This document shows, in pieces, positions 16,209 to 63,378 of a DNA stretch of 64,000 nt. The translations under genes were made by a program, and so were the position numbers. The stretch is from NCBI GenBank assembly GCA_914767715.1, contig OU612072.1, positions 11,470,001 to 11,534,000 of the forward strand, given 5' to 3'. The stretch's first letter is position 1, and every line of letters starts with the position of its first letter. Below the pieces are notes generated by a model. The model was not told the origin of the DNA. It made no database searches and saw only the letters and a program-made list of their open reading frames with translations. Source of the stretch: Membranipora membranacea. Its lineage: Eukaryota > Bryozoa > Gymnolaemata > Cheilostomatida > Membraniporidae.

Positions 16209-17142
16209 CTATTCATGTGGTGATGGGCATAAGTAGCATTTGCAAATTTGTACAGCGTTCTCATATCTGTATTTCCAGCAGCCTTTCTCTAGGATACAGA
16301 AGCCGTAGCATTGGTTGATTCCATTTGGATTCTTGAATGGCCTGACATAGTGCACATCACCTGCAGAAGCAACTGTAAAAAAAAATGAAAAACAATTCTA
16401 ACTATTAATATCGTAACCAATGATATTAACTGAACTGTGTTGACTGTTGACAATGACAATTGTTTAATATAATTATGTTTTTGATATTTTACGTTTAGTA
16501 AGGTTTCTTGGTATGGCAGTGGCGTATATTAGCAATCACGGACCACAGATATCCGTGAATCAAAATCCTTGATTACGTTGATTAAGTTGTGCAAGCCAGG
16601 CTGAATAGCTCAGTGTGTAGAGCGTCTGCCTGGTATTCACTGTTTACTAGGAATGTTTTGTGTTCGAATCCCAACAATGTCTGATTTTTTTTCAAATGGA
16701 TGCTTTATAACTGGAGCATTTTTAATTTTCCCTAGGGGGGATGTCTTATAAGTGAGGAATTACGATACATACAGAGTTTGACCTTGAGCTGGACAAGCCA
16801 ATCAAAAGCCCGGTGTATTGACACACCCACACCCTCCCCACCACGCCTACGGCGTGTGGATCGGGCTGCGCCCGATCATTATGCTCATCTCTAAAAAGTC
16901 AGTAAGTGAAATTTTTTGGAATATACGCCCCTGGGGTATGGATTATTATGATAAAGTTACGTCAGATTTTTGACATGAGCTACAAACACTATCCAGTAAA
17001 AGGAGGTGTATTGGAAGGAAGTTTGATTCAGAATGTTGAGTGATGTTTTCTGATTGAGTGCTGTAAATGGACAATACAACTTACAGCTAGCAAGAGTAGC
17101 CAGAAGAGCAAAGACAGCTAGTAGACAGACAGTAAACTTCAT
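16209..17142 (-). CDS. Class A secreted six-cysteine peptide A1
   Basis: Coding exons are 17085-17142 (58 nt) and 16209-16372 (164 nt), giving 73 residues. Exon 1 encodes a signal peptide starting MKFTVCLLAVFALLATLAS. The phase-1 intron splits the next codon and cleavage probably follows Ala-Ser-Ala. The mature part of about 50 residues has spacing C-x3-C-x5-C-x11-C-x-C-x2-C and ends PSPHE. A 5'UTR acceptor lies at 17155/17156. The UTR exon donor is at 17396/17397, and a TATA box at 17455-17462. The mature peptide is identical in A2-A5 although codons differ. The gene is divergent to B1. The family is not one I can name. Secretion and the disulfide-rich scaffold suggest an antimicrobial or venom-like peptide. 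A 417-bp transposon lies in the coding intron. Confidence 0.85.
16599..16690 (+). other. tRNA-like (pol III promoter-like) segment, probably non-functional
   Basis: A box-A-like tagctcagtgtgtagagcg is followed by a box-B-like gtgttcgaatccc and then a T run. The acceptor-stem ends do not pair and the anticodon-arm region is enlarged. I read it as tRNA-derived (SINE-like) material inside the hAT-like element. Confidence 0.5.
16841..16877. repeat. Two adjacent GC-rich hairpins
   Basis: cacgcc-tac-ggcgtg (16842-16856) is followed directly by gatcgggc-tgc-gcccgatc (16859-16877). These are 6-bp and 8-bp perfect stems with 3-nt loops, in otherwise AT-rich DNA. Confidence 0.85.
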
Positions 17143-17396
17143 CTTTCAGTTTAGTCTGAAAAAATACAATTGCAATAAATTAGAAGGAAGCTAGTAGAAT
17201 GTAGTAATTTATGAGCTAGTATGCAAAATGTAAATATTCAAAGCTGACAGGATTAAATCATCAAATACATGATTGCCCAAGACAAATCTCGCAATATCTC
17301 ACAATATCTCACAAAGTCTCACAACATATATTTCAGTAGACACTGTACGGATAAAGCTGTCAAAGATGGAAGATTAAACTACTTACTGTGAGAGTG

Positions 17397-17560
17397 GAGA
17401 ACCTTCTCGGATGTTCACAAAGTAGTTGAATGTCCCTCACTTGAAATGAAGAGGTTTATATACCTTTTAGCAAGCCGGACATTTGGCCATGTCAAGGAAA
17501 AGGAAACTCTTAAATCATCCTTTATTGGCCTAAAATTTTAATCAAGTGGATACCGTGCTA
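17397..17560 (-). promoter_or_regulatory. Class A promoter and 5'UTR exon of A1
   Basis: Read on the - strand: an upstream block with tttccttttccttgacatg, then ggtatataaacctc (TATA 17462-17455), then catttcaagtgagggacatt around the likely start site, then the donor at 17397/17396. The same modules recur before A2, A3, A4 and A5 and, modified, before C1 and C2. Confidence 0.75.
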
Positions 17561-18660
17561 GGCTAAAACTATACAAATTTTTATAAATGTTTTTTTTAAA
17601 GGTAAATTTTTGTTGGCAAATCAATCCTGAATGTCACTCTCATGATTACGGCTCTAGTTATGACAGAATGGGGAAAAGGTTTCCCTGTAACCTGAACACA
17701 CTGTGTATATTTTGTATTTGGCAAAGTCAACCAAAACAACCTCCCTCAGACCTGATCACTGGAAAACCAGGAACTATGACATTGCATTTATCCGGTAATG
17801 TTTTGTAATTATTGGAAAGGACTGCAGAGAACGAACCATGAAATGGATTTGCCAACACCAACGTTATTCGAGGAAATAGGTGAGTTTTGGCTCAGGAATT
17901 GCGATATTAGAAAAGCATAAGAACAGCTTTCTGGTAATTTGATAATGCATTATTTAAGTGGTAATCATTTTCCTAAGAATTAAGGTTAAAATATAAGATC
18001 ATTGATATTGTTTAATGATTACACATAAAGTGAGGGCTGGGTGCCATATGGAGCATCTCTAGCAATTAAATGAATCAGTCACATTTCCACATAGCTGGGC
18101 CATATTCAGAGTAATCAGTCACAATTGAGGAAACAGGGAGGTCGTCTTCGAATAAATATTGCAAGAGAGTTTTTTGGAATCGATCGATCTAAAACTAAAT
18201 CATAAAAAGTTTACAATTGGTAGACTGTAGCACTACTCAAATATTGGACCAATAAACTTGAGGAAATTCATTCCTTAATCCATACCTGTGCTTGTAGGGG
18301 ACAGATGTTCCCCATAGTCCATAGGCCTAAAGTTACTTGATGCCAAAACATGATGACAGTCCTTCATGTTTACTGACTAATAGTTGAGAATGCATTTTTA
18401 TCATCATGAAGCTCTAACAAAGTTTGAGGAAAACATGTTGTTTGTAGATACACAGATAAAGCGCCAAGTCATGCAGACTTTAATCATCAAGTTTTGAGAA
18501 AACACTAAATTAAATCAATTAATACAATACTAAAGGAAATTCTGGTCAATTGCCAAAACTATTTTTGATCTGTGAGAAACAATAAATCATAGTGGTCAGA
18601 GGTGAATCTTGTGTAACAATCGCATTGGTGACTTAGCATATTCAGCATATTCAGCATAAG

Positions 18661-18734
18661 TATTTAAAGCAACACACAGGGCAACTAAATCATCCGTTTG
18701 TGAAAGTCTCACCAAGATTACCAATTCCAGTTCA
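18661..18734 (+). promoter_or_regulatory. Class B promoter and 5'UTR exon of B1
   Basis: A TATA variant tatttaaa lies at 18661-18668. A UTR exon follows, with caagattaccaattcc and the donor gtgagtatcc at 18735. The same caagattacc plus gtgagtatcc arrangement is present in B3 and similar in B4-B6. tgacttagca lies about 30 bp upstream of the TATA. Confidence 0.65.
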
Positions 18735-18891
18735 GTGAGTATCCAGAAACTACTATTGACGCTTGTCATACTTTTTAAGTCATTTGCAATCTTTAAATGC
18801 ACATTCAAAGAAAACTGGAAATTTATTTTTACTACATTAAACATCAAACTTTTTATGATTTACAGGTTGTAAGAAATACTAAGAAGTGAAA

Positions 18892-19557
18892 ATGAAGTTT
18901 GCAGTTTATCTATTTGCTGTATTTGCACTCCTAGCTGCTATGGCTCAACGTAAGTTGAATAATTTAGTATTTAAATGACGAAACCATGATGTTTAGCTGG
19001 TTAAACTAGTAACATGACTGTATTCTCATGGAAACTGCTGCGTGGCTACATCTACTATGGTCCTTAAGGTTTTTTCTGTTGTATTTTCAGTTCTTCAATT
19101 AGTTTCTTCTTGGCTGAGGCCTTCTTCTATAGGAAAACATGACACTCAAAGCCTAGATGATTACTGTGATCAGCTGAATCATACTTTCAGGCACTCTGAC
19201 CATTATACTATTAACATTATTGCAATCTGAAATATTATCACCGTTTACAATTTAATATTGTTTTGTTTTTGTGTGAGTGATGTTGTTCGCTCATACCGAT
19301 TATTTTGTCTTTTTCAAGCTTGAGCCCTGCAATTCAACCAAATGAGTTTGTTTGATAACAACATTTTATACCTTTATGATGCTTGTATTCTTCTTTTAGA
19401 TGCTGAGGCAAGGTATGTGTTTCCAAACACATCCCTCCCTTCTTGTCCTCCCTATAATCCCCACTGCAATCCCTGCGAATACAGATGTATTGTAAACAGA
19501 CAGTGTACTCAATGGAACCAAGACGCCAAACATTGCTTCTGTGACGGCTGTCACTAA
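18892..19557 (+). CDS. Class B secreted eight-cysteine peptide B1
   Basis: Coding exons are 18892-18949 and 19400-19557, giving 71 residues. The 5'UTR acceptor is at 18865/18866, and the polyA signal AATAAA at 19672-19677. The signal peptide starts MKFAVYLFAVFALLAAMAQ. The junction codon reads His. The mature part begins near AEARYVFPNTSLPSC. It has eight cysteines spaced C-x6-C-x2-C-x3-C-x5-C-x9-C-x-C-x2-C and ends DGCH. This order (two leading Cys, CxxxC, single C, CxC, then C two residues on) is that of 8-Cys CS-alpha-beta defensins such as drosomycin. Loop lengths differ, so the fold is inference. The last six cysteines match the class A core. B1 is divergent from A1. Its near-identical paralogue is B2, with one mature change (Asn to Tyr). 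Confidence 0.87.
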
Positions 19558-20534
19558 CCTGCATTCAACTGTGAAAAAGATTGATTTTTGATGATGGAAT
19601 GTACTATGGACCACTTTGAACTTCCTATTCGCCTTTATATATTTGATTGTTCTAATTTAATTTTTGATTGAAATAAAATGATATTAAACTGCATATTGTG
19701 TCTAGATGTGATTTCCAAAAGTACTGAATGCAAGTCCAACACAAAATCAGTAGCATTTCATTATCAACACAGTCTGTCCAACAATAGAGGCATTCTATTG
19801 TCAACCACCGCCAAACCAACTGTCATTGATATTTCATTTGCGATGGGACAACACGACAACTAGCAACCCAGGGAAATACTTGTACTTAAAGTATGTAAGG
19901 GCAAAGTAACAGCTAATCGTGATGTCGTTCTCACCTTTATAAGAATGCAAGACGTCAAAAGTCATTATTGCAATCATCAATCAGGCACAATTTTCCGAAC
20001 GACACCTTATTGTTATACCTAGGCCAGTTTCTAGTTACCAGTGAGTAAACAGTAGTCATTTTCTGCAGACACAACAAGTCACCTAAAGTCATGCTAGGCC
20101 AATCGTTTACATTCAGCAGCACTAAAAACCGAATATCGGCTAAAATCTTGATTAGTGAAAATATTGCTGATCGTTCTTTGTGTTTTTGATTGCATTCTGA
20201 TGTGCTATAGGTAATAACCGTTGTAACTAATATAATATGTATGGGGGAGTTTGTGCACTCATAATTAAATATAATTGTGCAAGGATTTATGATTGCCAAA
20301 CACTGTACTGAACATTAATTTTTTTGCCAATTATTAGCTTTTTCCACCTCAAGGTTGACGCGATGGCAGTAGTTTGAAATTCTCATCTCGCAGACCATCA
20401 ACCCACGCTTACTCACTATAAATTATGGTTACCAACCTAAATTCCATAATCATCGTGTTGCCTACACTGTGTAAAGCTATAAATTGTACTGGAATTGTTT
20501 TCCGCCTGCAGGTTAGCCTTGTGACATAATTTAG

Positions 20535-20740
20535 GAGCAGGGGGTGGCTCAGTTGGTAAGGGGGCCTGACTGCTTATATGGAAGTGTTAGAGGTCTTGAG
20601 TTTGAATCCCGCTGCAGTCTACTGACTACATGCCTCAATTGATGATCTGTCTGCAAACCCAGAGTAATTTGGTGCCGAATATTGAGGCCGCGCCCTTAAG
20701 GTCATGCCTCGCCTACCCCCCCCCTCAGAGACACAGAATA
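20535..20740 (+). mobile_element. tRNA-derived SINE-like element (copy in block 1)
   Basis: Box-A-like tggctcagttggtaaggggg and box-B-like gagtttgaatccc lie about 45 bp apart. An unrelated body and a C-rich stretch follow, then agaataaag. The same element is at 30,668-30,876 as part of the segmental duplication, so it predates that event. Confidence 0.6.
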
Positions 20741-21654
20741 AAGGTAACAACAAAATGATCACAGCTTCCTCTGACATTCCAAGACCCACAGATCAGCCAT
20801 CAATGGATATTTAATATTTTTGCAGAGCATTGTGTATTCTTAGACTATCAATCATCATCTATCCACTTCTCATCATAATTTGATAAGTAAATTCATTTCT
20901 TGCATGATTAAAGTCGAAGTGAGTTTACATCAAAGGTTTACAAGTAACTACCCTAAACTTTACACAAATCTTAGATCTGTTGCGAAGAAAGATTCTGGTA
21001 AAAAAAACCTCATTTTGGAGAAAATTCTTCTTAGAATCTTCTTTGGTGAAGGGTTGTGGCTAATATTCAATTAATACATAAATGGTGGGTTACTTTACAA
21101 ACTGAATCACTCAAAATCAAGAAACGTGAAATAAGATTGCAGAAATCTTGAGATTTTAAACTCCTATGGCTTAAACTTGTTTGATAGTATTGATAAGGAA
21201 ACATCTGTGTCTCCTTAATTTTGATTGATATCTCTAAACTTAGCACAAAGAGGATGTGTTTGATGGTTAAATGAATTAGGGGTGTACAAATGTCCTGTCT
21301 GTTGGAAGAAAGGTACCATATAGTACCCAACCCTCAGGTAAATTAAACATAATCAAAAAATCGGCATATTTGACATTTGACAATGACTTTGAACTATGCT
21401 TGTTATCAATCTATGATTCAACTTTTTCCTCAAGTAGCATTTTTGTGGACAGTTACCTTGCTCAGTGTTATGTGGTCATTTCAAATTATTTGAAAAAATT
21501 AACATATAAATCACTGATTTGCACAGTCATATTTCCCTGACAAGGTGTGTATATACAAGGAAACAATTTGCCTATTCCTCATCGACAGGAGCCATTCTCA
21601 TGCTGTAGCACGAATGATTGATTTACCTTAACAAATATATCGCACCATAAATAG

Positions 21655-21888
21655 TCTAGCACAATATCAATTTGATCAAAATCACTTTTCCTTGCAGGTC
21701 TGGCTGTCGGGCTTTCAGCTATATTAACCTCAGCAGTTCAAGTGAGGGACATTCATCTACTTTGTACTGAACTTTACTGTACAACATGGTCATCATCCTA
21801 GACAAAGTCTGCTAGAAACACAGATATGATAATAATGTAGAAATATGCAAATGCTACTTATATCCATCACCACATGATCTCTAGATGT
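21655..21888 (+). pseudogene. Class A/C relic: promoter fused directly to the end of exon 2
   Basis: The class A promoter is recognisable (atatcaatttgatcaaaat, ttttccttgcaggtctggct, ttcaagtgagggacattcat), but the TATA box is mutated to ctatatta. About 25 bp further on the sequence passes straight into the cysteine-coding 3' half of exon 2 (about 21,795-21,875: tgcaaatgctactta, ccatcaccacatga). The signal-peptide exon, both introns and the first cysteines are gone. A TAG replaces the conserved Trp codon after the third core cysteine. Confidence 0.8.
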
Positions 21889-22064
21889 ATACACTATTTA
21901 GCCTTTCCCTTGATTTTATTCCTATAAATTTTTATTACTTTTCATCACAAGCATTTTTTCAAATTTTTCATTATAACAAAATTTAAAACAAAGCCACATT
22001 GTAAAATAACAAACAAAATTGCAAATGATTATACAAAATTTAATTATAGTTATGGGACACTCAC

Positions 22065-22150
22065 TTTCTAGAATCGGTAATCTTGCTGAGAAACTCCCAA
22101 ACTAATGATTCGTCTTCCCTTTGCGAGGCTTTTTATACTTATTCTTCACA
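22065..22150 (-). promoter_or_regulatory. Orphan class B promoter and UTR exon with no gene
   Basis: On the - strand: gtataaaaag near 22,137-22,128, a UTR exon containing caagattaccgattctagaa, and a donor gtgagtgtcc near 22,070. The typical upstream element catgacttagca lies at 22,361-22,372. No signal-peptide or mature exon follows. It faces the class A relic, so a former convergent A-B pair has lost most of its coding DNA. Confidence 0.7.
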
Positions 22151-22809
22151 GGTAACTATGTATGTTAAGTTGCAGGAGCAAGTATTACTCAACATTTACC
22201 TCCTGATACTTTGATTGATTGTTTCCTTGACCATACAAGTAAGAATCTGAATTTGCCAATAGATTGACAACTATTTCCTTTAATGGTTGATTGGGTTGGG
22301 TAAATAAACTGAGACAATTAATCACTATTTTCTTTCGCATAAATTGTTGATTAAAATCTTCATGACTTAGCATTTTGTATGCAAATTGCAAGCCTACATA
22401 GATATTATGTTCACAAAAGGCTTTTGATTATTTAAACAAGCCATATCCCTCAGTTTCTCCAATAAGAAATGATAAAGATGAATATCCTGTGTAAAGCTAT
22501 ACAATAAGATGGAACTCTGATTCACTACTCCTACGATTAGGAAACAGTGATTTCTACCTTCTCTGAAACCCAAAGATTCTGAGTAGAGCCCCTGGAAAAG
22601 AATCACTTTGGTAGCGAAATTTCTTGTCTTCCTAGTCTATTAATCATGTTATCTATCCGATTTTCGGCAGAGGTTTTTCGACAAAATTCCTTTCCGGGCT
22701 CACTAAACTTTAAAAATTGCTAGTGCACTGATCTTTCTGAATTTGGGTAACAGTCTGTGAACTCTATCTAAAATTATGCGCGTCGGTAAAACTGTAAGGG
22801 TACTGCATT

Positions 22810-23007
22810 CCCTATTTTGTATTGTTTTGTATTGTATTGTATTTTATTTTATTTTATTGTATTTTATTGGATTGTATTGTATTGTATTGTATTGTATTGT
22901 ATTGTATCGTATCGTATTGTATCGTATTGTATTGTATTGTATTGTATTCTATTGCATTGTATTGCATTGTATTGTATTGTATTATATTGTATTGTATTGT
23001 ATTGTAT
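22810..23007 (+). repeat. TATTG pentanucleotide satellite (copy 1, interrupted)
   Basis: About 40 units of tattg with ttttat, tatcg and tatcc variants. All three + frames stay open because the 15-bp period reads Tyr-Cys-Ile-Val-Leu. This is not a gene. Confidence 0.97.
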
Positions 23008-23667
23008 CCTCTGGTTTCATTTCCAATCATCTCTTCAATATATCATTTTATTTTTTCAAAATATACAATCTATTCAATACCAATTATATTATATTATAGT
23101 ATTGTGTTACATAATTAAGGAAAGTAAAAGAAATTACTCTAACTAAACCAAACAGAATAGTCATACAAACAAGTCCATAAAACCTTGTGCATTAAATCAT
23201 ATTGATCTCTCATTTCCTTAGTTGTGGTTGATAACTCTAAACATAGCACATTGAGGATATTTCTGATTCATTGTAGGTTAAATAAATTAGGGGTTTCAAA
23301 ATGCCCTTTTTATTGCTTAAAAGTTACCATGTGGGACCCTAAACTGAATTATGTATAACTCAAAAGTTGGCAGTTGACAATGTTATTTCCTTGACATTGC
23401 AATTTCCACGCATTCGGGGTATATTTATTTTAAATCCGCTAAATCTTTTTCCTCAAGAAACATGTACGAGAAAATGCCTTTCTTATGATATTGTCATTTC
23501 CAATTGTTTCTAAACAGTATAGATAGTATTGATACTTTTCTAAATTGCAAATTCATTATGTTCCCCCGACCAAGAAAATTGAGTAAATTTTAAGTGATTG
23601 GGTAGGCAACATCTAATTGAATGAAGGATTATTCAAGTCTTTCCTTTATAACTGTCAGGCTAACAGG

Positions 23668-23743
23668 TATAAAAACTTCTGCATTTCAATCTAGGGACAT
23701 TAAACTACTATGTGAAGATCCGAGAAGAACTTCCACTCTCAAA
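23668..23743 (+). promoter_or_regulatory. Class C promoter and 5'UTR exon of C1; empty retrotransposon site
   Basis: TATA tataaaaa at 23668-23675, ctgcatttcaatctagggac near the start site, and donor caaa|gtgata at 23743/23744. The stretch from about 23,701 to 23,745 is the uninterrupted version of the 45 bp that flank the retrotransposon in block 2. Confidence 0.75.
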
Positions 23744-23933
23744 GTGATAAAATAAATTCTTTCTCTAGGTCTGTTCTGACTGCTTAACCAACAATGCAAT
23801 GTTACAGCGTTGCACTGGTGTATTTTAGTTGATTGAAGGGCTACATTATTTCCATTTTTCATTTCACCTTCAAACCCATTGATATGTCAATAGTTTGTTT
23901 ATATTTCAATTGTACGTTTTTCAGACTAAGGAA

Positions 23934-24633
23934 ATGAAGTTCACTGTCTTTCTTTTGGCTATTTTTGTTCTTCTGGCTTCTCTTGCACACTGTGAGTAGT
24001 ATTTTCTATTATCAGCACTCATTCTTGATATTGTGTTGGCAATGAATTGTCTCACTTCATCCAACCAATAATACATTTACTACACTCAGTCATGAAATAA
24101 TGCGTAACATTCTGCATAAACCCCCCTCCACCATTTCACTACTTTCTACTTAAAATTACTGTTATCACATAAAATAATATGTACTCAATTGTTGAAAAAT
24201 TTATTCTGGCATAAAAATGGTTTGTATGTTGCAACGGTTGTTTCGTTTTTTCAACTAGTTCTGTGATGTCTCTGTCTGAGGTTAAAATGCTCTTGGCTGT
24301 CTGATCTGAACAAAATTAAGATAAAGATTGACCAACACAGTCCTGGTTATAATCATTGTGCCATATTTATAGGATGTTGTTTAGATTTCTAGGCTGCACA
24401 TATAATGCTGAATGAAATTGTTTAGCTATTAGAGTCGCACAGTATCAATCCTACACGCTTTCTTGCTTTAATTAGCAGATGCAGCTGTTGGTGGCGTACA
24501 CGTTGGAATCCAACCAAAAGGAATCCAACTATGCTACACTTCTTGCATCATAGACAAAGGCTGCTGGAAATACAGCTATGAGAATAAGGGCGAAATATGC
24601 AAATGCGACCTCTGTCTATCATCACCTGAATAG
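23934..24633 (+). CDS. Class C secreted six-cysteine peptide C1
   Basis: Coding exons are 23934-23991 and 24479-24633, giving 70 residues with TAG at 24631-24633. The signal peptide starts MKFTVFLLAIFVLLASLAH. The phase-1 junction codon reads Tyr. The mature part starts AAVGGVHVGIQPKGIQ and has C-x3-C-x5-C-x11-C-x-C-x2-C, the class A spacing, with GCWKYSYENKGEICKC close to the A motif. The exon 2 acceptor is a tandem TAGCAG (ending 24475 or 24478); both give in-frame products differing near the cleavage site. Immediately downstream, instead of a full B gene, only the tail of one remains at about 25,600. Confidence 0.87.
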
Positions 24634-25439
24634 ACACTCTCAGCAATGATGACAATTATACAATTTTATGACCAGACTTCTTGATGGTTTCATAATATCA
24701 AAATAAATAATTGAAATTAAACTTCTAAGTTCATTTTCAAATTATATCTCAAAGTTATTCAAGCGCACAGCATGTTCGGTGAGCTATGAAAACAAAGAAA
24801 ATTAAAAATAGAGATTCAACACATATTTCATGATCATAGAAATCAATATGTATAGTTAGAATTTAAAATATCTCTCACTATTAAACACAATACCATACAC
24901 AGCACATGCCTAACACAATTTGACAAACACACAGATTGAAAATTACACTGTTTATTACGTTTGCCATTTTTTGATTCATCAGTTGATGCCTCTGATCTTC
25001 ATTGTCGGAAATTTTCAATGGATGGACAAAGCCCCCTCCCCCCCCCCCCCAATCAATGATGAGTTGACTGCATTATTAACATTTGAGATGTTTACCCAGA
25101 CTGATAGTAAAAAATTAGGGTGTGAAGTCAATTAGCAAATTGAAATTGAGAACCTTTCTCGTCTTATTGTTTGATGTCAACACCTAACTATTTATTCCTC
25201 GTTTATTTTTACAATTGGTTTCTGCAAATAGTTTCCCAATTTGTAAATGCACTGCTGAGCTTGAAGCCTCGTTTTTTTAACATTGAGCAGCAGCAGTGGC
25301 AGCAGTAGATTAATGTGGAAAGCTCATCTTGGATAGGGGTTAGTTGCAAGACATTGTTGACAAATTCATAATGACAAATGGCAATTGGTGGTAGATAATA
25401 GAATGGACAATGTTTGAGCACTTATGTATTTGGGTCATT

Positions 25440-25626
25440 ACCTTTAATATTACACATTAGCAGTCTAGACATTCAGAACTGATCTGCAGTTGAATAACAA
25501 TTTTATTTCCATAAAAGATCTAAAATCGGTGTTTGAAAATTAAACAAAAGCATAGAGAGATTTTAAGTCAGTTGGTTGAATAATCAATCATCATCATCAA
25601 TAATCTAGCGAGCAGTTTAATGGCAA
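25440..25626 (-). pseudogene. Truncated 3' end of a class B gene at the duplication junction
   Basis: This segment matches the downstream flank of gene B3 (36,900-37,078), including atcatcatcatcaataatct and the stop codon (tta at 25,618-25,620) with its last His/Cys codons. Matching then ends abruptly and unrelated DNA begins at about 25,626. The rest of the gene is missing in block 1. Confidence 0.75.
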
Positions 25627-26496
25627 ATAATTGGAATATTTTTCATACCATTGGAGCATCGTGGAGTTGTCTTATCAACAAGATGAAATGTACAGCCAGT
25701 GGCTATAAATGATTGTCGATTTACGACAATTTTGTGTATTGAGATGGAAAGCTTGCTAAGTCTTTCTTCTACCAAGGTCATCAGAAACTCATTCAGGATG
25801 CCAAAGGTAAATTCTTTGATCAAAATCTATGGGGGAACTAAATTTATAAACATAACTAATGTTGGTTAAACATATTGGTCAGCATCACAACTTTTTCTCT
25901 CCAGATGAAGAGTGAGAAGTGAAGGTGCCCTCGTATCCGGTGCAGTCTTGTAAACTGTCCCGCGCGCGAAATAAAAACCCTTGGACACTCTTCAAATTGT
26001 GAACTGTCAATGACAGCAGGGAGTTGTGTACACATACATTGGCGACGGGCAACTCCTATGACTAGCGATAAACTAGCGACAATCTGCTATGAAGTAGACG
26101 CCCTCATAAACAATTTTTTTTAAATGATAAAAAAAATTGTGATCATTGATAACAGACAGTGCAGTATCATAATCTTATTGTGGTTTGAATTTAATCATAG
26201 GTTGAGATATATTCAGTTTTCTTGCTATGTAATCATCATACCATCAGAGGCAACATGTTTCACATGCTTGAGTCTTTCCATAGATGGATGCCAATAACAC
26301 TATCTACAATAATCTATTATGTTCTACTTCTACCTGTGAATCTATCAATAAATATCAGATGGTAAATACTGCTAGTTTTGATGAATAGGAAAGATTTGTT
26401 ATTTGAAAATTGTATTCAGTTATATACGGTTTAATAATATGGAAAAACAAAGATCAGTCTGGTCGTAAAATCATAGCCACAGAATTGTTGTCATTT

Positions 26497-27016
26497 CTAT
26501 TCATGTGGTGATGGACATAGGTAGCATTTGCAAATTTGTACAGCGTTCTCATATCTATATTTCCAGCAGCCTTTCTCTAGGATACAGAAGCCGTAGCATT
26601 GGTTGATTCCATTTGGATTTTTGAATGGCCTGACATAATGGACATCACCTGCAGAAGCAACTGTAAATAAAATGAAAAACAATTTTAACTATTAATGTGG
26701 TATCCAATGATAATGATTATTAACTGAACTGTGTTGACTGTTGATAATGACAATTTTTTAATATGATTATACATTTTTGAAATTTTACGTATAGTTAGGT
26801 TTCTTGGAATGGATTATTATGATATAGTTACGTCAGATGGTTTTTGACACTGGCTACAAATAATATCCAGAAGAAAAAAGTGTATTAAAAGGAGGTTTGA
26901 TTCAGAATGTTGAGTGATGTTTTCTGATTGAGTGCTGTAAATGGACAATACAACTTACAGCTAGCAAGAGAAGCCAGAAGAGCAAAGACAGCTAGTAGAC
27001 AGACAGTAAACTTCAT
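26497..27016 (-). CDS. Class A secreted six-cysteine peptide A2
   Basis: Coding exons are 26959-27016 and 26497-26660, giving 73 residues. The signal peptide starts MKFTVCLLAVFALLASLAS. The mature peptide is residue-for-residue that of A1, with silent changes (for example gtc cat for gtg cac, and cta tgt for tta tgc). The intron is about 300 bp and lacks the transposon of A1. The UTR acceptor, donor and TATA (ggtttatatacc on +, near 27,329-27,340) match A1. The gene is divergent to B2 and encodes the same proposed secreted disulfide-rich peptide. Confidence 0.87.
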
Positions 27017-28782: not shown

Positions 28783-28856
28783 TATTTAAAGCAACACACA
28801 GGGCAACTAAATCATCCGTTTGTGAAAGTCTCACCAAGATTACCAATTCCAGTTCA
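28783..28856 (+). promoter_or_regulatory. Class B promoter and 5'UTR exon of B2
   Basis: tatttaaa starts at 28783 and the donor gtgagtatcc at 28857. The region 28,717-28,970 differs from the B1 counterpart at about one base by eye, far less than flanking DNA. Confidence 0.65.
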
Positions 28857-29013
28857 GTGAGTATCCAGAAACTACTATTGACGCTTGTCATACTTTTTAA
28901 GTCATTTGCAATCTTTAAATGCACATTCAAAGAAAACTGGAAATTTATTTTTACAACATTAAACATCAAACTTTTTATGATTTACAGGTTGTAAGAAATA
29001 CTAAGAAGTGAAA

Positions 29014-29678
29014 ATGAAGTTTGCAGTTTGTCTATTTGCTGTTTTTGCACTCCTAGCTGCTATGGCTCAACGTAAGTTGAATAATTTAGTATTTAAATGA
29101 CGAAACCATGATGTTTAGCTGGTTAAACTAGTAACATGACTGTATTCTCATGGAAACTGCTGCGTGGCTACATCTACTATGGTCCTCAAGGTTTTTTCTG
29201 TTGTCTTTTCAGTCCTTCAATTAACTTCTTCTTGGCTGAAGCCTTCTTCTATAGGAAAACATGACACTCAAAGCTTAGATGATTACTGTGATCAGCTGAA
29301 TCATACTTTCAGGCACTCTGACCATTATACTATTAACATTATTGCAATCTGAAATATTATCACCGTTTACAATTTAATATTGTTTTGGTTTTGGGTGAGT
29401 GATGTTGTTCGCTCATACCGATTTGTCTTTTTCAAGCTTGAGCCCTGCAATTCAACCAAACGAGTTTGTTTGATAACAATATTTCATGTCCACATTATGA
29501 TGATTGTATTCTTCTTTTAGATGCTGAGGCAAGGTATGTGTTCCCAAACACATCGCTCCCTTCTTGTCCTCCCTATTATCCCCACTGCAATCCCTGCGAA
29601 TACAGATGTATTGTAAACAGACAGTGTACTCAATGGAACCAAGACGCCAAACATTGCTTCTGTGACGGCTGTCACTAA
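29014..29678 (+). CDS. Class B secreted eight-cysteine peptide B2
   Basis: Coding exons are 29014-29071 and 29521-29678, giving 71 residues. The signal peptide starts MKFAVCLFAVFALLAAMAQ. The mature part has the B1 spacing C-x6-C-x2-C-x3-C-x5-C-x9-C-x-C-x2-C, with one change from B1 (Asn to Tyr between the first two cysteines). AATAAA lies near 29,793. It is paired divergently with A2. The defensin-like reading is as for B1. Confidence 0.87.
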
Positions 29679-31849: not shown

Positions 31850-32061
31850 TGATCACAAATACTTTTCCTTGCAGGTCTGGCTGTCGGGCTTTCAGCTATA
31901 TTAACCTCAGCAGTTCAAGTGAGGGGCATTCATCTACTTTGTACTGAACTTTACTGTACAACATGATCATCATCCTAGACAAAGTCTGCTGGAAATACAG
32001 ATATGATAATAATGTAGAAACATGCAAATGCTACTTGTGTCCACCACCACATGATATCTAG
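31850..32061 (+). pseudogene. Class A/C relic, block 2 copy
   Basis: Paralogue of the relic at 21,655. The promoter-like part runs straight into the end of exon 2. Here the Trp codon is intact and a 32-codon frame from an ATG near 31,964 to TAG near 32,061 keeps the last four core cysteines. It has no signal peptide and lacks the first two cysteines, so I call it a pseudogene. Confidence 0.75.
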
Positions 32062-32219
32062 ATGTATAGACTATTTAGCTGTTCACGTGATTTAATTCCT
32101 ATGAATTTTTAATTACTTTCCATCACAAGCATTCTTTCAAACTTTTCATTATAACAAAATTTAAAACACAAACATTGTAAAATGACAAACAACATTGCAG
32201 ATGATTATACAGAATTTAA

Positions 32220-34078: not shown

Positions 34079-35233
34079 TGAGAAAGCTATCATGTATTTG
34101 TATGCCCGTTCTGTTTTACCAACTCTCAGTGCTGGCCAGTTTGCATATCAAAAGGGTAGGTGTACTACTGATGCTATTCTATTAGCCGTCGATACCCTAA
34201 CACGCATGTTGGATGAGCCAAAAGTGAATACTGTGCCTGCGACTTTCCTTGATATGTCCAAAGCCTTCGATAGGATGGATAAGGGCAAACTCATAGAAAT
34301 GTTAGCCGATCGTGGTATAAACAAACGTCTGGTGCTGATCATACACAGCTTCCTTAGTCAACGGCAGCAGAACGTCAAACTGGGCAGTGAGCATAGTTCC
34401 ACACTCTCAACCAAGAATGGTACACCTCAAGGTACTCTCTTGGGTCCAATGTTCTGGCTGTTGTACATAGATACTCTGTCTCCTTCATGCACTACCATCA
34501 AGTACGCCGATGACGTGACACTCATACCATCTTCATCTAGCGAAAAGACCGAACAACTGCAGCAAGCTATAGATGAGACCACAGAATGGTGTGCTGAGAA
34601 AAACATGATGGCCAATACAACAAAAACAGCGAGCATGAAGTTCTCAAATGTGCACAACAGTCAAAAGATCGAGCCGCACAGATTCTCAATGAGCGGTGAC
34701 GTTATTGGAATTGAGACAAGCACGAAGTTTTTAGGTGTCGTGATTGACAACAATCTGACATTCAAACAACACGTTGATCACCTCGTGAAAAAGACTAGAC
34801 CAATAATATATACACTGATAGACCTCAAACCATCTGGAATGCCTATCAGTGCACTGAAACATTTCTACATAGCATGCATCCGTCCCATTCTCCTGTATGC
34901 TTCTCCCTCCTGGTATTCCATGCTCTCTCAGCAACAAAGAATGAGGATCCTGCGTGTAGAAAATTTGGTACTCAAGGTTCTTGATCCGTGAGGTCTCGAT
35001 TACAATGACCGAACAGCGAACATTGAGATACAACAAGTGCTTGATCTCCTCAACCAGACGTGCCAAGAGTACATGTGCAATGTAGAAAATAACACAGAGC
35101 ACTGCCTTAATGGTGTGATGGCAAGTTACAAACCAACAACTGCTCCTCGAAGGTCAACTCGACTGGCCCAGAAACCAAGACCAAGGGCACGCACCGCACT
35201 GAGGGCAAACTCTCCATTTTTATGTTACATGTG
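34079..35233 (+). pseudogene. Non-LTR reverse transcriptase, truncated, one in-frame stop
   Basis: Polymerase motifs occur in order: FAYQKGRCTTDAIL, TFLDMSKAFDRMD (catalytic Asp), NGTPQGTLLGP, IKYADDVTLI (YADD catalytic pair), a Lys-containing motif D, and TKFLGVVID. The frame is broken once by TGA at 34989-34991. It then continues in the same frame to TGA at about 35,231-35,233, with a basic tail RRSTRLAQKPRPRARTALR. The endonuclease and N-terminal part are missing through 5' truncation. The first 42 residues of the open frame starting at 33,954 come from host promoter DNA, not from the element. The element supplied its own activity in trans or was copied by a relative; the exact clade is not resolved. 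Confidence 0.9.
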
Positions 35234-35370
35234 AGCTTTTGTTTCTCTTTTTAATTTCAATATGCAAATAGTGCAAACTTTTTTCGCATTTTTCTGATTG
35301 AAGATCATTAGTAGATTTTTTGATTTTATTATCAAAAGATTTGTGATCAATAAATAAAGCCCGATATATA
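34079..35370 (+). mobile_element. 5'-truncated non-LTR retrotransposon with 45-bp target duplication
   Basis: The insert of 1,292 bp is flanked by exact 45-bp direct repeats (34034-34078 and 35371-35415). The unoccupied version of the site is at about 23,701-23,745 in block 1, so insertion followed the block duplication. It starts inside the reverse transcriptase domain and ends with a 3' tail containing aataaa near 35,350, finishing in tatata without a poly-A run. Confidence 0.93.
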
Positions 35371-37070: not shown

Positions 37071-38043
37071 TTAATGGCAGTTGTTACAGAAGCAATGCTT
37101 GGCGTCTGTGAAATAACTTCCACACTGTCTGTTTACAATACATCTGTATCCGCAGGCAGTGTAAAACCAAGGTTTTGGAGAAGGAGGAAGGGATGTAAGA
37201 GGAAATACATATCTTGCCTCAGTATCTAAAACATAATACAACCATGATATAGACATAAAATATTGTAACAGAATAAACAAATAAGAATTGCAGCGTCCAA
37301 GCTTAGACATGACAAACTGGTCTTTGATTATGTTTTGCTGAGCCAACAACAATTTACACACAAACAAAAATAATGTATAAGGTGATCATGAAGAAAGTGC
37401 AATAAATTCGAAGACAAATTTTGATCAGTGTTTCTGTCCATACTATTCAAATTAGTAATGTCCTTCAACAAAACCATGAATGCCAAGTTACTTTTCTTCA
37501 AAATGATTGGTCCAGTCAAGAAAATAGTTGAAATATACATCGAGCTTTCTTGTTTAGATTAGTTCAGGTTTTTTTTTTTTTAAATTGATTTGAAAATAGC
37601 AGCTTTATTGTTCTTTTTATTCTTCAAACAATCATTAGTTGCCGCCTGTTTTCTAGCCATGACGAATTAAGGATAGTTTCTATTGCAAAACCTTAGATTT
37701 TTATTGTCAGAGCAGACACTGATATCATATATTGTTTTATATGAGTCTTCCTGATACTGTATAGCAACAGTCAATCCAAAGGAATTCATAGATCACATCA
37801 AAGATTAACAAATTAAGGGGACCACAGAAGATGCTTTTCCATGTACATACAGTCGAATTGCCCATGTAATAGCTACAAATGTGCTTGAGAATCTCAAAGT
37901 ATATGACAAATGATTGGGTAGCAGTACCGGAGAATCCACAAGTATTTATTTGTCATTAATGTGAATAACAAGTTGTGCAACTTACTTTGAACCATAACAG
38001 CAACGAGTGCAAATACAGCAAATAGACAGACTGCAAACTTCAT
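37071..38043 (-). CDS. Class B-type peptide B3, six-cysteine variant
   Basis: Coding exons are 37986-38043 and 37071-37225, giving 70 residues. The signal peptide starts MKFAVCLFAVFALVAVMVQ. The mature part starts TEARYVFPLTSLPPS like other B peptides, but the two leading cysteines are replaced (PSC to PPSP region, rich in Pro and aromatics). This leaves C-x3-C-x5-C-x9-C-x-C-x2-C and ends NNCH. The 5'UTR acceptor is at 38069/38070. The UTR exon donor is at 38346/38347, and TATA at 38414-38421. Loss of both leading cysteines together makes it the class B gene closest in cysteine count to classes A and C. Confidence 0.85.
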
Positions 38044-39288: not shown

Positions 39289-39299
39289 ACCTGTCTTTG

Positions 39300-42497: not shown

Positions 42498-43458
42498 ATG
42501 AAGTTCACTGTCTGTCTCCTGGCTGTCTTTGTTCTCCTGGCTTCTCTAGCTAACTGTAAGTACTGCCACCATATTTTATTTTCTCAGCACTAGGTCTTTG
42601 AAAACATAACATAGGAGAAAATTGACCACTTCAATCACCTTATATAACTATATCAAACGTACACCTACCCTGAATTCTCAGATTCATTCTAAAGGCAGCG
42701 CTACGGTTTAGAAAAGCTGTAGGCGATAGAAAAAAATCTTGAGAGTGCCATGTTACACCTGGTGGGGTGCTGGATCTGGAACCTGGCATGTAATGCTTTT
42801 TAATTTCGAATGGAAGTTTATTTAGTATTCTAGGAGGGTGCAGGGCATCCCTGCCTTCCTTAGAACTACAGACCTGAAAGGTCATCATAATCAAATAGAA
42901 TCCTAGACATACAAAATCATTATTTTGGGCTCCATCATTTTTCTGAACTCAAAGGTTGACCTATGTCTTTATCTGTTCCAAGTTCTTTGTGAAACAGAAA
43001 CATGCATTACTCTCCATTTTTTCCTATTCTTCCCTCATTTGTTAAATCAATGACCTCGTCCAAGAAACGAGACGACTTCATTACATGAAGGCACTGTCCC
43101 AGGTTTAGCAATCCTTTTCTAGCAGATCATTTTTATTTTGGTCAACAGTTTGAATAACACGGTTTAGGGGAGAGTCCTGGGAATTAAATTTTTAGGATGT
43201 GATTTAGTTTGCGTAGCCAGCTGTGAGTTCCAAAGTCATAGTTGTTTTATAAAAGGATTGCAAAATTGCAATACACAAACAATTTTTTTTATAGTTGCTT
43301 CTGCTGGTGATGTGCACTATGTCAGGCCATTCAAGAATCCTAATGGAATCAACCAATGCTATGGCTTCTGTATCCTAGAGAAAGGCTGCTGGAAATACAG
43401 ATATGAGAACGCTGTACAAATTTGCAAATGCTACTTATGCCCATCACCACATGAATAG
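42498..43458 (+). CDS. Class A secreted six-cysteine peptide A3
   Basis: Coding exons are 42498-42555 and 43295-43458, giving 73 residues. The UTR acceptor is at 42490/42491, and the polyA signal AATAAA at 43563-43568. The signal peptide starts MKFTVCLLAVFVLLASLAN. The mature peptide is identical to A1, A2, A4 and A5, with C-x3-C-x5-C-x11-C-x-C-x2-C. It is convergent with B4, about 2.2 kb away. A 552-bp transposon-like insertion sits between them. Confidence 0.88.
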
Positions 43459-45622: not shown

Positions 45623-46686
45623 TTAATGACATCCATTACAGAAGCAATGTTTGGCGTCTTGGTTCCATTGGGTACACTGTCTGTTTACAATACATCTGTA
45701 TGCGCAGGGATTGCAGTGGGGATTATAGGGAGGACAAGAAGGGAGCGATGTGTTTGGAAATACATATCTTGCCTCAGTATCTGGAAAAAATATAATCATC
45801 ATAAAAGGAAAGTAGAATATTCATTTATGGATTCATTTGATTGAGTTGAAGCCTAACTAAGAGCTGAGCAAACAAATCCACCTACACACAAAAAAAATGG
45901 TGAATGGTGGAAAATATATAAAATCACCAGAATTTCATATTAATTTTTCTATAGGAATTCCTGACAGTACAGGGATATCTCTAGAAACGTATGTAAATTT
46001 TTGAAGAGTAATTATTCTATCTACAGAAGATTGTGAGCTACAGTTCTACCTAAGAGTTGTCCCCATTTGCGTTGCACACCTTTAGCTGTAAGATCAAGTT
46101 GATTGTTGGAAGTCAGCAGATGAGAGTAATACTAACTGTGTTATGCTAGCAATTAAACTGATCATACCATTCACCAAGGCTGTGAATGCCATGCTTTTAT
46201 TTTCAATCAAATGGCTTAACCAAGAAAACAGTTGAAGAACTATGTTGGGTTGCTTTAAGATTGAATTTATACAAGTAGCTATACTTTTCTGTACTTTTCC
46301 AAACAAGTAGCCTTTTTGTTGCCTCCTGCTTTCAGGTCATGATGAACTAAAGATATTCATGATCTGAAAACTTTTTTTTTGTGGAGGTACTAGTATCTTT
46401 TTTTGTTTTAGATGAGTCTCTCTGATTATGGATGGCAGCAGTCAATCAAATGATTTTATAAATCACGTCGAAGCCCACAGTAGATGTCTGTTTATGTAAA
46501 TACAATCAACAGGCTAATAGATATACATGTGTTTGAGAATTTCAATGAATGTGACAGATGATTGGATTATCTTACCTAAGCAACTATAAACCACATATTT
46601 CATTTGAATATTAAAATGTGAAACTTACGTTGTGCCATAGCAGCTAGGAGTGCGAATACAGCAAATAGACAAGCTGCGAACTTCAT
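45623..46686 (-). CDS. Class B secreted eight-cysteine peptide B4
   Basis: Coding exons are 46629-46686 and 45623-45780, giving 71 residues. The UTR acceptor is at 46711/46712. The UTR donor is at 46851/46852, and TATA at 46919-46926. The signal peptide starts MKFAACLFAVFALLAAMAQ. The mature part has C-x6-C-x2-C-x3-C-x5-C-x9-C-x-C-x2-C. It differs from B1 by Glu to Ala before YRC and Asp to Asn in the final CxxC. It is convergent with A3. Confidence 0.87.
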
Positions 46687-49090: not shown

Positions 49091-50016
49091 ATGAAGTTCA
49101 CTGTCTGTCTCCTGGCTGTCTTTGCTCTCCTGGCTTCTCTAGCTAGCTGTAAGTACTGCCTCTATATTTTATTTTCTTAGGACTAGGTCTTTGAAAACTT
49201 AACATAGGAGAAAATTGACCACTTCAATCACCTTATATAACTATATCAAACGTAAACCTACCCTCAACTCTTAGATGTAACCTAAAGGCAGGGCAATGGT
49301 TTATGAAAGTTGTAAGAGATAGAAAAAAACCTTGAGTTTGCCATGTTACACCAGGTCAGGTACTGGATCTGGAGCAAGGACCCAGTCTCTAATGCTTATA
49401 AATAGCAAATGGAAACTTATTTAGCATTTTAGTGGGGTGGCAGGGCACCCCTGCCTTCCCTAGAACTACAGGCCTCAAAGATCAACACGATCAATTAGAA
49501 TCATAGACAAATGATAGCATTATTTTGGTTCCATCATTTTTTACTGAACTCAGACACAAACTGCTCACTCTTACGCTGTCTTTTTTTTTCTACATCATTT
49601 GTTAATTTAATGACCTTGTCCAAAATACAAGACCACTGCATTACACGAAGTCACTGACTGAGGTATCGCATTCTTTTTCTAGCAGATCATTTTTTTCTGT
49701 CAGCAGTTTGATTAACACAGTTCAGGTGATTGTTCTAGGTATTAAATTTCTAGGATGTGATTTAGTTTGTATAGCTAGCTGTGAATTTCAAAGTCATAGT
49801 TGTTTTATAAAAGGATTGCAAAATTGCAATACACAAACAATTTTTTTTACAGTTGCTTCTGCTGGTGATGTGCACTATGTCAGGCCATTCAAGAATCCTA
49901 ATGGAATCAACCAATGCTACGGTTTCTGTATCCTAGAGAAAGGCTGCTGGAAATACAGATATGAGAATGCTGTACAAATTTGCAAATGCTACTTATGCCC
50001 ATCACCACATGAATAA
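49091..50016 (+). CDS. Class A secreted six-cysteine peptide A4
   Basis: Coding exons are 49091-49148 and 49853-50016, giving 73 residues. The stop is TAA rather than TAG. AATAAA lies at 50120-50125. The signal peptide starts MKFTVCLLAVFALLASLAS. The mature peptide is identical to the other class A genes. Silent differences from A3 include tac ggt for tat ggc. It is convergent with B5. Confidence 0.88.
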
Positions 50017-52257: not shown

Positions 52258-53007
52258 TTAATGACAGCCATTACAGAAGCAGTGTTTGGCGTCTTGGTTC
52301 CATTGAGTGCACTGTCTGTTTACAATACATCTGTATTCGCAGGGATTGCAGTGGGGATTATAGGGAGGACAAGATGGTAGCGATGTGTTTGGAAATACAT
52401 ATCTTGCATCAGCATCTAAAAATAATTTAATCATCATGATATGACAATCTTTATTTATGAACTCGTTTAATTGGAATGCAGCCCCAAACTAGCCTGTCTT
52501 GTCAAGACAAGCTACTCACAAGCCTATATTAGAGCTGAGCCAACCACTCCAACCACACAAGAAAACATTTAATAGTCAATAGTTGTAAGTGTAAAAAATT
52601 AATATATTTTATAACTAATATTAGTACAGTACTAAGATGTTGATGCTGTTCATGAACAATATCGTAATAAAATAATTAACTCATTTGATTCAATTGCAGC
52701 GTTTTAGCCAACATTGCTGCTTGCTTCATTCCTCCTCTAAGGGATTCAATGATCACAACAACAAAAACTTATTTAATCTAGGCAAGATCAAGAGATTGCA
52801 GACATTTCCTTGTGCAGTAATAGCTGTAAAAATGCCTGGCAATATATCTGTATATGAGAGATACTAAGTTTGTCAAGACTTGAACAGATATAATATATAA
52901 TCCATATACATAATTGTAATTTATTAAAAAACTTAATAGCGTAACTTACATTGTGCCATAGCGGCTAGGAGTGCAAATACAGCAAATAGACAAACTGCAA
53001 ACTTCAT
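52258..53007 (-). CDS. Class B secreted eight-cysteine peptide B5
   Basis: Coding exons are 52950-53007 and 52258-52415, giving 71 residues. The UTR acceptor is at 53033/53034. The UTR donor is at 53200/53201, and TATA at 53267-53274. The signal peptide is like B1 and B2; the junction codon reads Tyr. The mature part starts ADARYVFPNTSLPSC and has C-x6-C-x2-C-x3-C-x5-C-x9-C-x-C-x2-C, ending NGCH. It is convergent with A4. Confidence 0.87.
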
Positions 53008-57393: not shown

Positions 57394-58504
57394 ATGAAGT
57401 TCACTGTCTGTCTCCTTGCTGTCTTTGCTCTCTTGGCTTCTCTAGCTAACTGTAAGTACTGCCACCATATTTTCTATTATCTGTACTCAGTCTTATATAA
57501 AACATTTAATCCCTACCAAAGCACCATGCTTAATATGTTGTAACACTTAGCATTTATTGCTTTGGAAGGGTTATTGGTAGGGTTATGGTAGGGTATGTTA
57601 TTGAATGTAATTATATGGTTGTTAAACTTAGCCTTATGCAAAGGATCACATCCATAAAAATTAGGCTGACCAATGTTAATGAGTTCACAATGAGAGTAAA
57701 ATAGGAGGCAGGGATTCTTGTTAAGGTCAGTTTAGCATAGCTGGTTAGTAGAAATGGCCTTGATACCATCTGATATTAGTAATTGAATTGAAACCACCAT
57801 TCAGGGTTTCCATCTCAGCCAGCAACATCCCAGAATACATGCTAGGGTTTTTGGGCTTACCCAGCAACAACCCATGGGTTGTCGCTGGGTAAGCCCGAGC
57901 ATTGCATATTGCTCATTGCACCATCTCCCAAACATATGTCAGCGTTTCCTCGCCACCTTTTCAAAGTATGAGCTAATGCTCTAGCTAGAGGAGATAATTA
58001 CAGGAATAAATAAATTTAGAATAAAATTTAGTAATTCAGTGAACTTGTTTGTGATAGGATAACCCGATCAACTAGTCGTCAACTCTTCTTGTTTGCTTGT
58101 TTTTCAATCATTCTTCCAATTGATTACCTCATTTACGGCAGATCATACAAATAACAGCAGTAAAAAAGCATGGTACAACAAGAAGTCTTTGTATTCTTTG
58201 TAGGAAAGTTCAAAGTGATTTTTTCCATCAGATCAGTTTTGTCAGTATGTCAGGCAGCCCAAAGGGATTTCCAGGACACATTCATTTTAAAAAAGGAGGA
58301 TCAGTTTGGAACCTACAGTCTAATTTTTTCCGTTTTACAGATGCTGCTGCAGGTGATGTACACTATGTCAGGCCATTCAAGAATCCGAATGGAATCAACC
58401 AATGCTACGGTTTTTGCATCCTAGAGAAAGGCTGCTGGAAATACAGATATGAGAACGCTGTACAAATATGCAAATGTTACCTATGTCCATCCCCCCATGA
58501 ATAG
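57394..58504 (+). CDS. Class A secreted six-cysteine peptide A5
   Basis: Coding exons are 57394-57451 and 58341-58504, giving 73 residues. The UTR acceptor is at 57379/57380. AATAAA lies at about 58,586 and 58,603. The signal peptide starts MKFTVCLLAVFALLASLAN. Just after the intron the codons read Tyr-Ala-Ala-Ala (atgctgctgcagg), closer to class C (atgcagctgttgg) than to A1-A4 (ttgcttctgcagg). From Gly-Asp-Val onward the mature peptide is identical to A1-A4. It is convergent with B6. The intron carries a 44-bp palindrome. Confidence 0.87.
57853..57896. repeat. 44-bp near-perfect palindrome without a loop
   Basis: gggcttacccagcaacaacc plus ca at 57853-57874 meets its complement at 57875-57896 with one mismatched pair. 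It lies in the A5 intron. Confidence 0.9.
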
Positions 58505-61394: not shown

Positions 61395-61439
61395 ATCACT
61401 TCTCGGCCTATTGGCTAAGATCAAAGTGTCACTGCCAAT
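61395..61439 (+). pseudogene. 5' fragment of U2 snRNA
   Basis: atcacttctcggcctattgg followed by ctaagatcaaagtgt matches the conserved 5' end of U2 snRNA with few changes. The branch-point-pairing part (GUAGUA) and the rest of U2 do not follow. This is a truncated U2-derived sequence, not a working U2 gene. Confidence 0.8.
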
Positions 61440-62331
61440 GGCCGATTAGTGCCAGTTCAGTTTTGGCAGCAAACCCACGATTAGGAGGTCTTCTATGGCC
61501 TCACCTCTAGGATGCAATCTTATTTTTCTAGGATGTATCACATTCTCAGTATGAGGATTTAGGGCACTTTGTGTCCCTCTTTAGGAGCAGCCCAATCTTC
61601 GGTTTCTTAGTAAACAGCAAGTTTTTAATTACCAAAACCAGTGTAACATTTAGGGCAAAATATTTCCAAATTATTGGTTTTCATTGTTTCCCAAATTTTG
61701 ATACTCCGCCTAGGTGAATTAATCCAGGCCTTAAGCTGCAGCGACAAATGCATGCCTCAAAAGTTAACTCATTCACAGAATAAAGTAGGGCAGTTTAGAA
61801 GCAATTCACTTTGGATTTATGTATGTAGATTTGATTTTCTTTTAATTATAAATTGGCAATATACATGGTCTAAGTGTGCAGACAAATAGACTTCCTATGC
61901 AGAAGTTTTCTTGCCATTATCAATGTTGGCACAACTCTTGACAACTGTACAGCAAGTTTCAAAGTCACTGCCTATAAATCTGCTCAACTATTAAAGTCTT
62001 ATCTACATAGCTACTCTGAGAGCCTCGCTGGCATTATGATATATTATATGTGTGTTTTATGTCTGAGAAAACTCAACTACATTAATTGATAAACATTTCA
62101 ATTGATACATGCCCTTGCGTTTGATATAAATTAACTTTCTATACAAGAGGCAAGCAGGTTATATTGAGTGTTGAGGGTGATGATTTCAAAAACATTTGCT
62201 GTCTTTTAAATTTGCAGTTATTTATTTTCTTTAAAGAAAATGAAGTTTAATAACAGAAAAAAACAACAGAGATGTAGTTTGGGGTCCATAGAATATTTCA
62301 GCGACAGAAATCAAGACAATCAAGACACATA

Positions 62332-62890
62332 TTACAATTTTAGATGGCAGCCAGTACAGACGCAGGCATTGCCTCTTACCATACCTCCTCGACACTGTCC
62401 TCTTGCGGTACAACTGTTAGTGCATCTTTTAGCAGGGAATACAATTTGAGCCTCTGCATCTAAAATAAAAACGATAAAGGTCAACATAAAGACAACATCG
62501 GCTGCTGTTGTACTGGTCCTAAAGCTTGTAGAGTACTTTTTCCTGATCATCATGAGATGTTTTGAGATTTACAGTGTAGGGTGACTAATCATTTCATGAA
62601 TCACTTGTGTCTTACTTAGTATTTAAGTAATATGATGGAGCCTAATTGGGTTTGACAAGGAGTATTGCAGTAACAACTAGTCTTCAATTTCCTATACAAC
62701 ATAACCTTAATCTGTTAGACGCCAAATACCACAAGCACTAAAGAATATCAATAGGATTGAATTCTATTGATAGCAATTTATTTTCATTTTGACTATTGCT
62801 ACTCATTAAAATATCAAATTTGAATAACTTACATTGAACCATAGCAGCTAGGAGAGCCATTGCAACGAAAATACAAGCAGCGACCTTCAT
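62332..62890 (-). CDS. Divergent class B-type peptide B6, six cysteines
   Basis: Coding exons are 62833-62890 and 62332-62459, giving 61 residues. The signal peptide starts MKVAACIFVAMALLAAMVQ. The junction codon reads Tyr. The mature part starts AEAQIVFPAKRC, is Gly/Arg-rich and basic, and has C-x3-C-x5-C-x9-C-x-C-x2-C, ending with a short HLKL tail after the last cysteine. The N-terminal AEA..VFP links it to class B, but the 8-Cys extension is absent. The UTR acceptor is at 62916/62917. The UTR donor is at 63153/63154, and TATA at 63212-63219. It is convergent with A5. Confidence 0.83.
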
Positions 62891-63153
62891 TTTGAATTTT
62901 TAGTCTTTCTTACAACCTGTAGAATCATGACAGAAAATTACAAATTTATTTTCAGTGTCCTCGTACAATCATTTTATAAAATATTTTTGCATTCAGTGAC
63001 AGAAAAAAACATTGATAAAGTAATTGAATTCGGAGAGACAAGGAACAAAACATCACAATGCTTTCACTATCTCTGCATAAATGATTACATTTACAAAGTA
63101 TTATCAAGATAATAATTTAGATTAAACCTCAATAGCAATCACATGGTACTCAC

Positions 63154-63378
63154 TGGACAAGGATATTGCTGTAATTTCTAAAACTGATGACATAACAGCA
63201 AATGAATTCCCTTTATATACCAGAGCAGGGTCTTCCATGTCATCAATATTTCTGACAGTTTAAGATTGATTAATTCTTTCCTGTATTTACGATGATGGTA
63301 CGATAAATTGGGCAAATTAACATAGGTTCCCTTTCTTGTGTGATTGATTGGCTAGCTTTAAATTGGCATGACTTGGCA
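63154..63378 (-). promoter_or_regulatory. Class B promoter of B6
   Basis: TATA tttatata (on +) at 63212-63219. gcatgacttggca, one base off the element of B3-B5, lies at 63366-63378, about 150 bp upstream. Confidence 0.55.

Follow-up and report, generated by a model that had tools for sequence, protein, structure and literature searches.

A tandem cluster of candidate host-defence peptide genes with a mussel-type cysteine array in the bryozoan Membranipora membranacea

A stretch of 64,000 nucleotides (nt) on chromosome 8 (C8) of the bryozoan Membranipora membranacea (C8:11,470,001-11,534,000, referred to below as the window; positions without the prefix C8 are counted within it) contains a cluster of 13 genes encoding small cysteine-core peptides. 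With moderate confidence we consider them to represent a family of secreted host-defence peptides that has expanded in tandem within this lineage and employs a mussel-type cysteine-stabilised helix/beta-hairpin scaffold; they probably constitute an immune gene family. The cluster thereby provides concrete sequence-level candidates in a phylum with little-known immune effectors.

Gene models and the two peptide classes

A regular expression for the core C-x3-C-x5-C-x9/11-C-x-C-x2-C matched 13 times in the six frames of the window and not once in 60 first-order Markov shuffles of it. A separate scan, which looked for signal exons of 58 nt with hydrophobic translations, returned 17 candidates that included all 13 core genes. 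Each of these genes consists of a signal exon, beginning with ATG and exactly 58 nt long, with a GTAAGT or GTGAGT donor, a phase-1 intron of 298-889 nt with a pyrimidine-rich AG acceptor, and a mature exon whose stop codon follows the last cysteine by no more than six residues. Some genes have further in-frame acceptors, and the pyrimidine-rich one was taken for the gene model. Joining the signal exon to the in-frame acceptor yielded precursors of 61-73 residues, which are predicted to be secreted because of the hydrophobic signal exon. The initial annotation had proposed 13 intact genes with these exon and core features, and all 13 were recovered as described; judged by sequence, they are real genes.

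Its division of the peptides into two types was likewise evident in the alignment, which set the class A and C sequences apart from class B. Class A comprises A1 (16209..17142, minus strand; signal exon 17085-17142, mature exon 16209-16372), A2 (26497..27016, minus strand; 26959-27016 and 26497-26660), A3 (42498..43458, plus strand; 42498-42555 and 43295-43458), A4 (49091..50016, plus strand; 49091-49148 and 49853-50016) and A5 (57394..58504, plus strand; 57394-57451 and 58341-58504). The mature peptide is identical in all five, with A5 deviating only ahead of the inferred signal cleavage site. The related C genes are C1 (23934..24633, plus strand; signal exon 23934-23991, mature exon 24476-24633) and C2 (35604..36307, plus strand; 35604-35661 and 36150-36307). 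Class B is represented by B1 (18892..19557, plus strand; 18892-18949 and 19400-19557), B2 (29014..29678, plus strand; 29014-29071 and 29521-29678), B3 (37071..38043, minus strand; 37986-38043 and 37071-37225), B4 (45623..46686, minus strand; 46629-46686 and 45623-45780), B5 (52258..53007, minus strand; 52950-53007 and 52258-52415) and B6 (62332..62890, minus strand; 62833-62890 and 62332-62459). Two extra N-terminal cysteines are present in B1, B2, B4 and B5, giving a total of eight in B1, while B3 has neither of them. The net charge is +6 in B6 and in B8, a further B gene outside the window, and near-neutral in A, B1 and C.

In both classes, alignment of the upstream DNA revealed a TATA box followed by a donor and, 7-26 nt ahead of the ATG, an acceptor. 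This module suggests that a non-coding first exon, corresponding to the 5' untranslated region (5'UTR), very probably precedes the signal exon, so that the predicted plan would comprise three exons (UTR, signal and mature). The TATA box lies 320 nt before the ATG in A1 and 329 nt in B6 (at about 63219). The donor follows it by 66-78 nt in 12 of the 13 window genes, C2 being disrupted, with a spacing of 76 nt in A1-A5 as well as in A6 and A8 outside the window, 74-75 nt in B1-B5, 66 nt in both B6 and B8, and 78 nt in C1. No TATA box was matched at this spacing in A7, also outside the window. The full module was found in 11 of the 13 genes, the donors of C1 (GTGATA) and C2 being non-canonical, compared with 0.4% of 5000 random window positions, cluster included. 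The two classes had been said to use different promoters; this applies to the surrounding sequence, which differs by class, but not to the TATA/donor/acceptor module common to both. A scan for kappa-B motifs gave 0 and 1 matches, not above shuffles. Bacterial promoter and terminator signals in 16000-20000 were at chance level and are irrelevant to an animal genome.

Cysteine scaffold and candidate function

The core cysteines of the 13 genes fit positions 3, 4, 5, 8, 9 and 10 of the cysteine-stabilised alpha-beta (CS-alpha-beta) array, whose reference form, including a C2-C6 bond, is defined in PMC5116183. By spacing, the cysteine-stabilised helix motif (C3-x3-C4, C8-x-C9) is present in all of them. 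The predicted models show a helix followed by an antiparallel beta-hairpin (predicted local distance difference test 91.4 for B1 and 72.7 for A1), with the class B model, that of B1, adopting a beta-alpha-beta-beta topology.

Closer comparison with known peptides revealed precedents of different extent. Insect defensins and short-chain scorpion toxins (C2-C6, C3-C8, C4-C9) share the cysteine-stabilised helix motif, but theirs is the C2-C6 pair, while the bryozoan peptides carry C5 and C10 (array as given in PMC5116183). Mytilins and mussel defensins, which are secreted CS-alpha-beta peptides with eight cysteines, have the helix C-x3-C, another cysteine and the terminal C-x-C-x2-C in common with the bryozoan peptides, although the latter lack the 1-5 pair and a C-terminal anionic extension. 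In pseudomyticins, six-cysteine myticin variants of Mytilus galloprovincialis, six cysteines similarly remain of an array of eight once Cys1 and Cys5 are lost, and myticin genes, like those of other mussel antimicrobial peptides, have the separate 5'UTR, signal and mature exons that are predicted in the bryozoan, plus a fourth exon for the C-terminal region that the bryozoan genes do not have (PMC7356231). Pseudomyticins belong to a different phylum, however, and are likened here by cysteine array and exon plan and not by sequence; past the cysteines, no sequence likeness to known families was seen in the databases searched. Big defensins, reported in the bryozoan Flustra foliacea (PMC7203481), are defence peptides from the same phylum but represent another defensin family. 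A CS-alpha-beta-type peptide from a bryozoan was not found among the papers listed by the literature searches, which covered few subscription journals. The view of the cluster as an undescribed system thus holds for the sequence, which is unmatched in the databases searched, but not for the cysteine array and exon plan known from mussels: at the level of the DNA and its translations, what is new is the sequence and not the kind. If the mussel-like exon plan were common by descent, this gene plan would reach deep into Lophotrochozoa.

According to the host-defence interpretation, each gene would be transcribed from its TATA promoter with a short non-coding first exon, the 58-nt signal exon and a single exon encoding the complete mature peptide, without a pro-region. 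The signal peptide would be cut directly before GDVHYV in class A or RYVFP in class B (placed by eye), and three disulfides, most likely connecting core cysteines 1-4, 2-5 and 3-6, would fasten one helix to the beta-hairpin, while B1, B2, B4 and B5 may form a fourth bond, probably joining their two extra N-terminal cysteines. The peptides might be released constitutively or on challenge and target microbes directly or as opsonin- or cytokine-like effectors. Several A copies of one peptide would provide dosage, with uniformity maintained by selection together with gene conversion that focuses on the mature exon, while class B would diversify, including the clearly cationic B6 and B8.

We infer this role from four features: the scaffold, the organisation of each gene, the expansion in tandem (relics included) and the positive charge of B6 and B8. 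Two features weigh against it. The C2-C6 bond of the reference array is not possible, as all 13 genes lack a cysteine between positions C5 and C8 and the extra N-terminal cysteines of B1, B2, B4 and B5 have no partner for it, and the low charge of A, B1 and C calls for caution. Near-neutral charge, together with the constancy of the A sequence, which is under strong purifying selection, and the use of the scaffold in scorpion toxins as well (PMC5116183), would also suit a non-immune role of the same scaffold in secreted signals, deterrents, or skeletal or cuticle components of the colony. We regard such a role as possible but rather unlikely, since low charge is also found in myticins, for which it is called unusual and accessory functions are suspected (PMC7356231), and in some Perna mytilins, the gene plan matches that of mussel antimicrobial peptide genes, and B6 and B8 have a charge of +6.

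Duplication history and gene pairing

The left half of the cluster consists of two copies of one unit. Unit I (16061..25625), containing A1, B1, a class A relic, C1 and a B 3' flank, matches unit II (26363-37079), in which A1-B1-relic-C1 is copied as A2-B2-relic-C2, with pieces of 85-93% identity. Both relics are mature-exon tails on the plus strand (21795..21878, with an internal stop, and 31972..32055). Five-base satellite arrays of similar length (TTGTA / TATTG) lie within both unit copies (22817-23007 and 32983-33165). The A3-B4 and A4-B5 segments are homologous as well (pieces 74-85%). Beyond the window edge, on the other hand, B6, B7 and B8 are tandem copies of B only (90-94%). B7 (C8:11,538,934-11,539,077) is a B mature exon for which no signal exon was found, about 3 kb from a B-type signal relic (C8:11,535,866-11,535,922) that has a damaged donor and for which no core was found. 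B8 and A6 also lie beyond the window. A7 (12.71 Mb) and A8 (12.75 Mb) are 1.2 Mb away, without a B match better than an expect value (E) of 0.1 in the 70 kb examined. Whole-genome searches with A, B5, B6 and A8 proteins placed all matches at E 0.001 or better on chromosome 8; the resulting gene counts are lower bounds, as single-protein queries were used and the A query was short by three residues.

Inside the window the orientations of the initial annotation hold (A1-B1 and A2-B2 divergent; A3-B4, A4-B5, A5-B6 and C2-B3 convergent). Its statement that C1's B partner is cut to its tail was confirmed too: only a B3-like 3' flank remains (25110..25625, strand not assigned), with 87% identity to 36534-37079 and reaching 9 nt into the B3 reading frame. 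The claim that every A or C gene has a B neighbor does not hold beyond the window. Duplication of A and B as a pair is true of some segments, with the A1-B1-relic-C1 block and the A3-B4/A4-B5 segments, but is no rule, as B6-B8 were copied without A and A7 and A8 stand alone. As for the relics, said to form a convergent pair, the two class A tails are clear, while the B relic (32516-32439) was only weakly seen (E 0.018 in a 5.5 kb search).

Unlike types are joined in 11 of the 12 adjacencies in the window (permutation P 0.008), in 12 of 15 when 16 genes are counted (P 0.03), and in 8 of 9 after dropping the recent duplicates A2, B2, C2, A4, B5 and B7 (P 0.04), in tests that treat genes as independent and ignore shared ancestry. 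Alternation is thus only modestly above chance, and the proposed strict pairing is mostly a by-product of duplication. We rejected alternation as proof of co-function, as tandem duplication accounts for much of it and B-only duplications exist. A true two-component system, in which A and B bind or act together and selection maintains their adjacency, could draw on the window-wide alternation and on the copied segments that carry both classes, but it appears improbable given the B-only copies, the solitary A7 and A8, the mixture of divergent and convergent orientations and the P value left once recent duplicates are dropped. We attach equally little weight to a co-inherited defence pair of an invariant A and a variable B that sets the target (B3, B6 and B8 having changed charge and cysteine number), in which loss of the partner would lead to decay as in C1 and C2.

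These two genes are near neutral relative to each other (dN, non-synonymous divergence, 0.060; dS, synonymous divergence, 0.065). The predicted 5'UTR exon of C2 contains a retroelement fragment (34079..35370, plus strand) with a reverse transcriptase domain (RVT_1, E 6.8e-22), flanked by an exact target-site duplication of 45 base pairs (bp) at 34034-34078 and 35371-35415. Because this duplication is exact, the insertion is probably recent, and C2 may be failing. A plasmid search with the reverse transcriptase frame gave one uninformative match of 24%.

Closer examination of class A revealed local homogenisation, with near-identical mature exons next to unalignable introns as a clear example. 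A1 and A2 are 96.7% identical upstream and 96.3% in the mature exon, and the order flips between A1 and A3 (72.4% upstream, 98.2% in the mature exon), whose introns are unalignable (47%). In a column-wise count, 98 of 298 upstream sites distinguish A1 from A3, compared with 3 of the 55 third codon positions in the mature exon. We therefore rejected neutral age alone as the cause of the intron differences and regard gene conversion of the mature exon as the simplest cause, although selection on synonymous sites may be responsible instead. The grouping A1+A2 versus A3+A4 is supported by 77 of 297 sites upstream and by 2 of 55 third positions in the mature exon (Fisher P 7e-5), so some trace of the older kinship persists in that exon; when A5 is placed on the A3/A4 side, support comes from 54 of 257 upstream sites, 4 of 58 sites in the signal exon and none of the 55 third positions (P 1.6e-5). 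In each of the ten pairs among A1-A5, 0-1 of the 54 codons changed non-synonymously and 3-13 synonymously (dN 0-0.008, dS 0.104-0.604 in 7 of 10 pairs). Constraint is also evident among B1, B2, B4 and B5 (dN 0.008-0.025, dS 0.071-0.392 in 4 of 6 pairs). In comparison with B1, B3 (dN 0.272) and B6 (dN 0.588) are divergent.

Database searches and neighboring features

Of the 30 mytilins in the table of PMC7168163, the comparison included the 17 printed with 34 residues, a uniform length that allowed columns to be permuted, and dropped the other 13; in this low-power test, cysteine-preserving permutations reached the mytilin profile score in 102 of 150 cases for A and 27 of 150 for B. A Pfam search with four mature peptides and ten precursors assigned no family. 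Penaeidin (PF05927) was matched by two of ten members at E 10 or better (best E 0.04); membership was rejected, as the score of 15.0 bits for member 1 (E 0.044) is below the Pfam gathering score of 25. The PDB sequence search returned nothing informative for the peptides, and a protein database search with A and B queries gave no candidates. Least credible of all is the idea that the peptides are shrunken PAN/apple-like modules and not CS-alpha-beta-like, given that the E-value behind it is marginal, the remaining 14 of the 15 entries listed for B belong to CS-alpha-beta-type or cystine-dense peptides, a PAN module has roughly double the length, and we know of no PAN counterpart for the C-x-C-x2-C tail.

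A tRNA scan found none. To the left of the cluster are tandem arrays of 50-bp and 61-bp units (10027-10179 and 10845-11095). An open frame on the plus strand with a WD40 repeat (3110-3394; PF00400, E 2.4e-10), also on the left side, probably represents an exon of a gene unrelated to the cluster.

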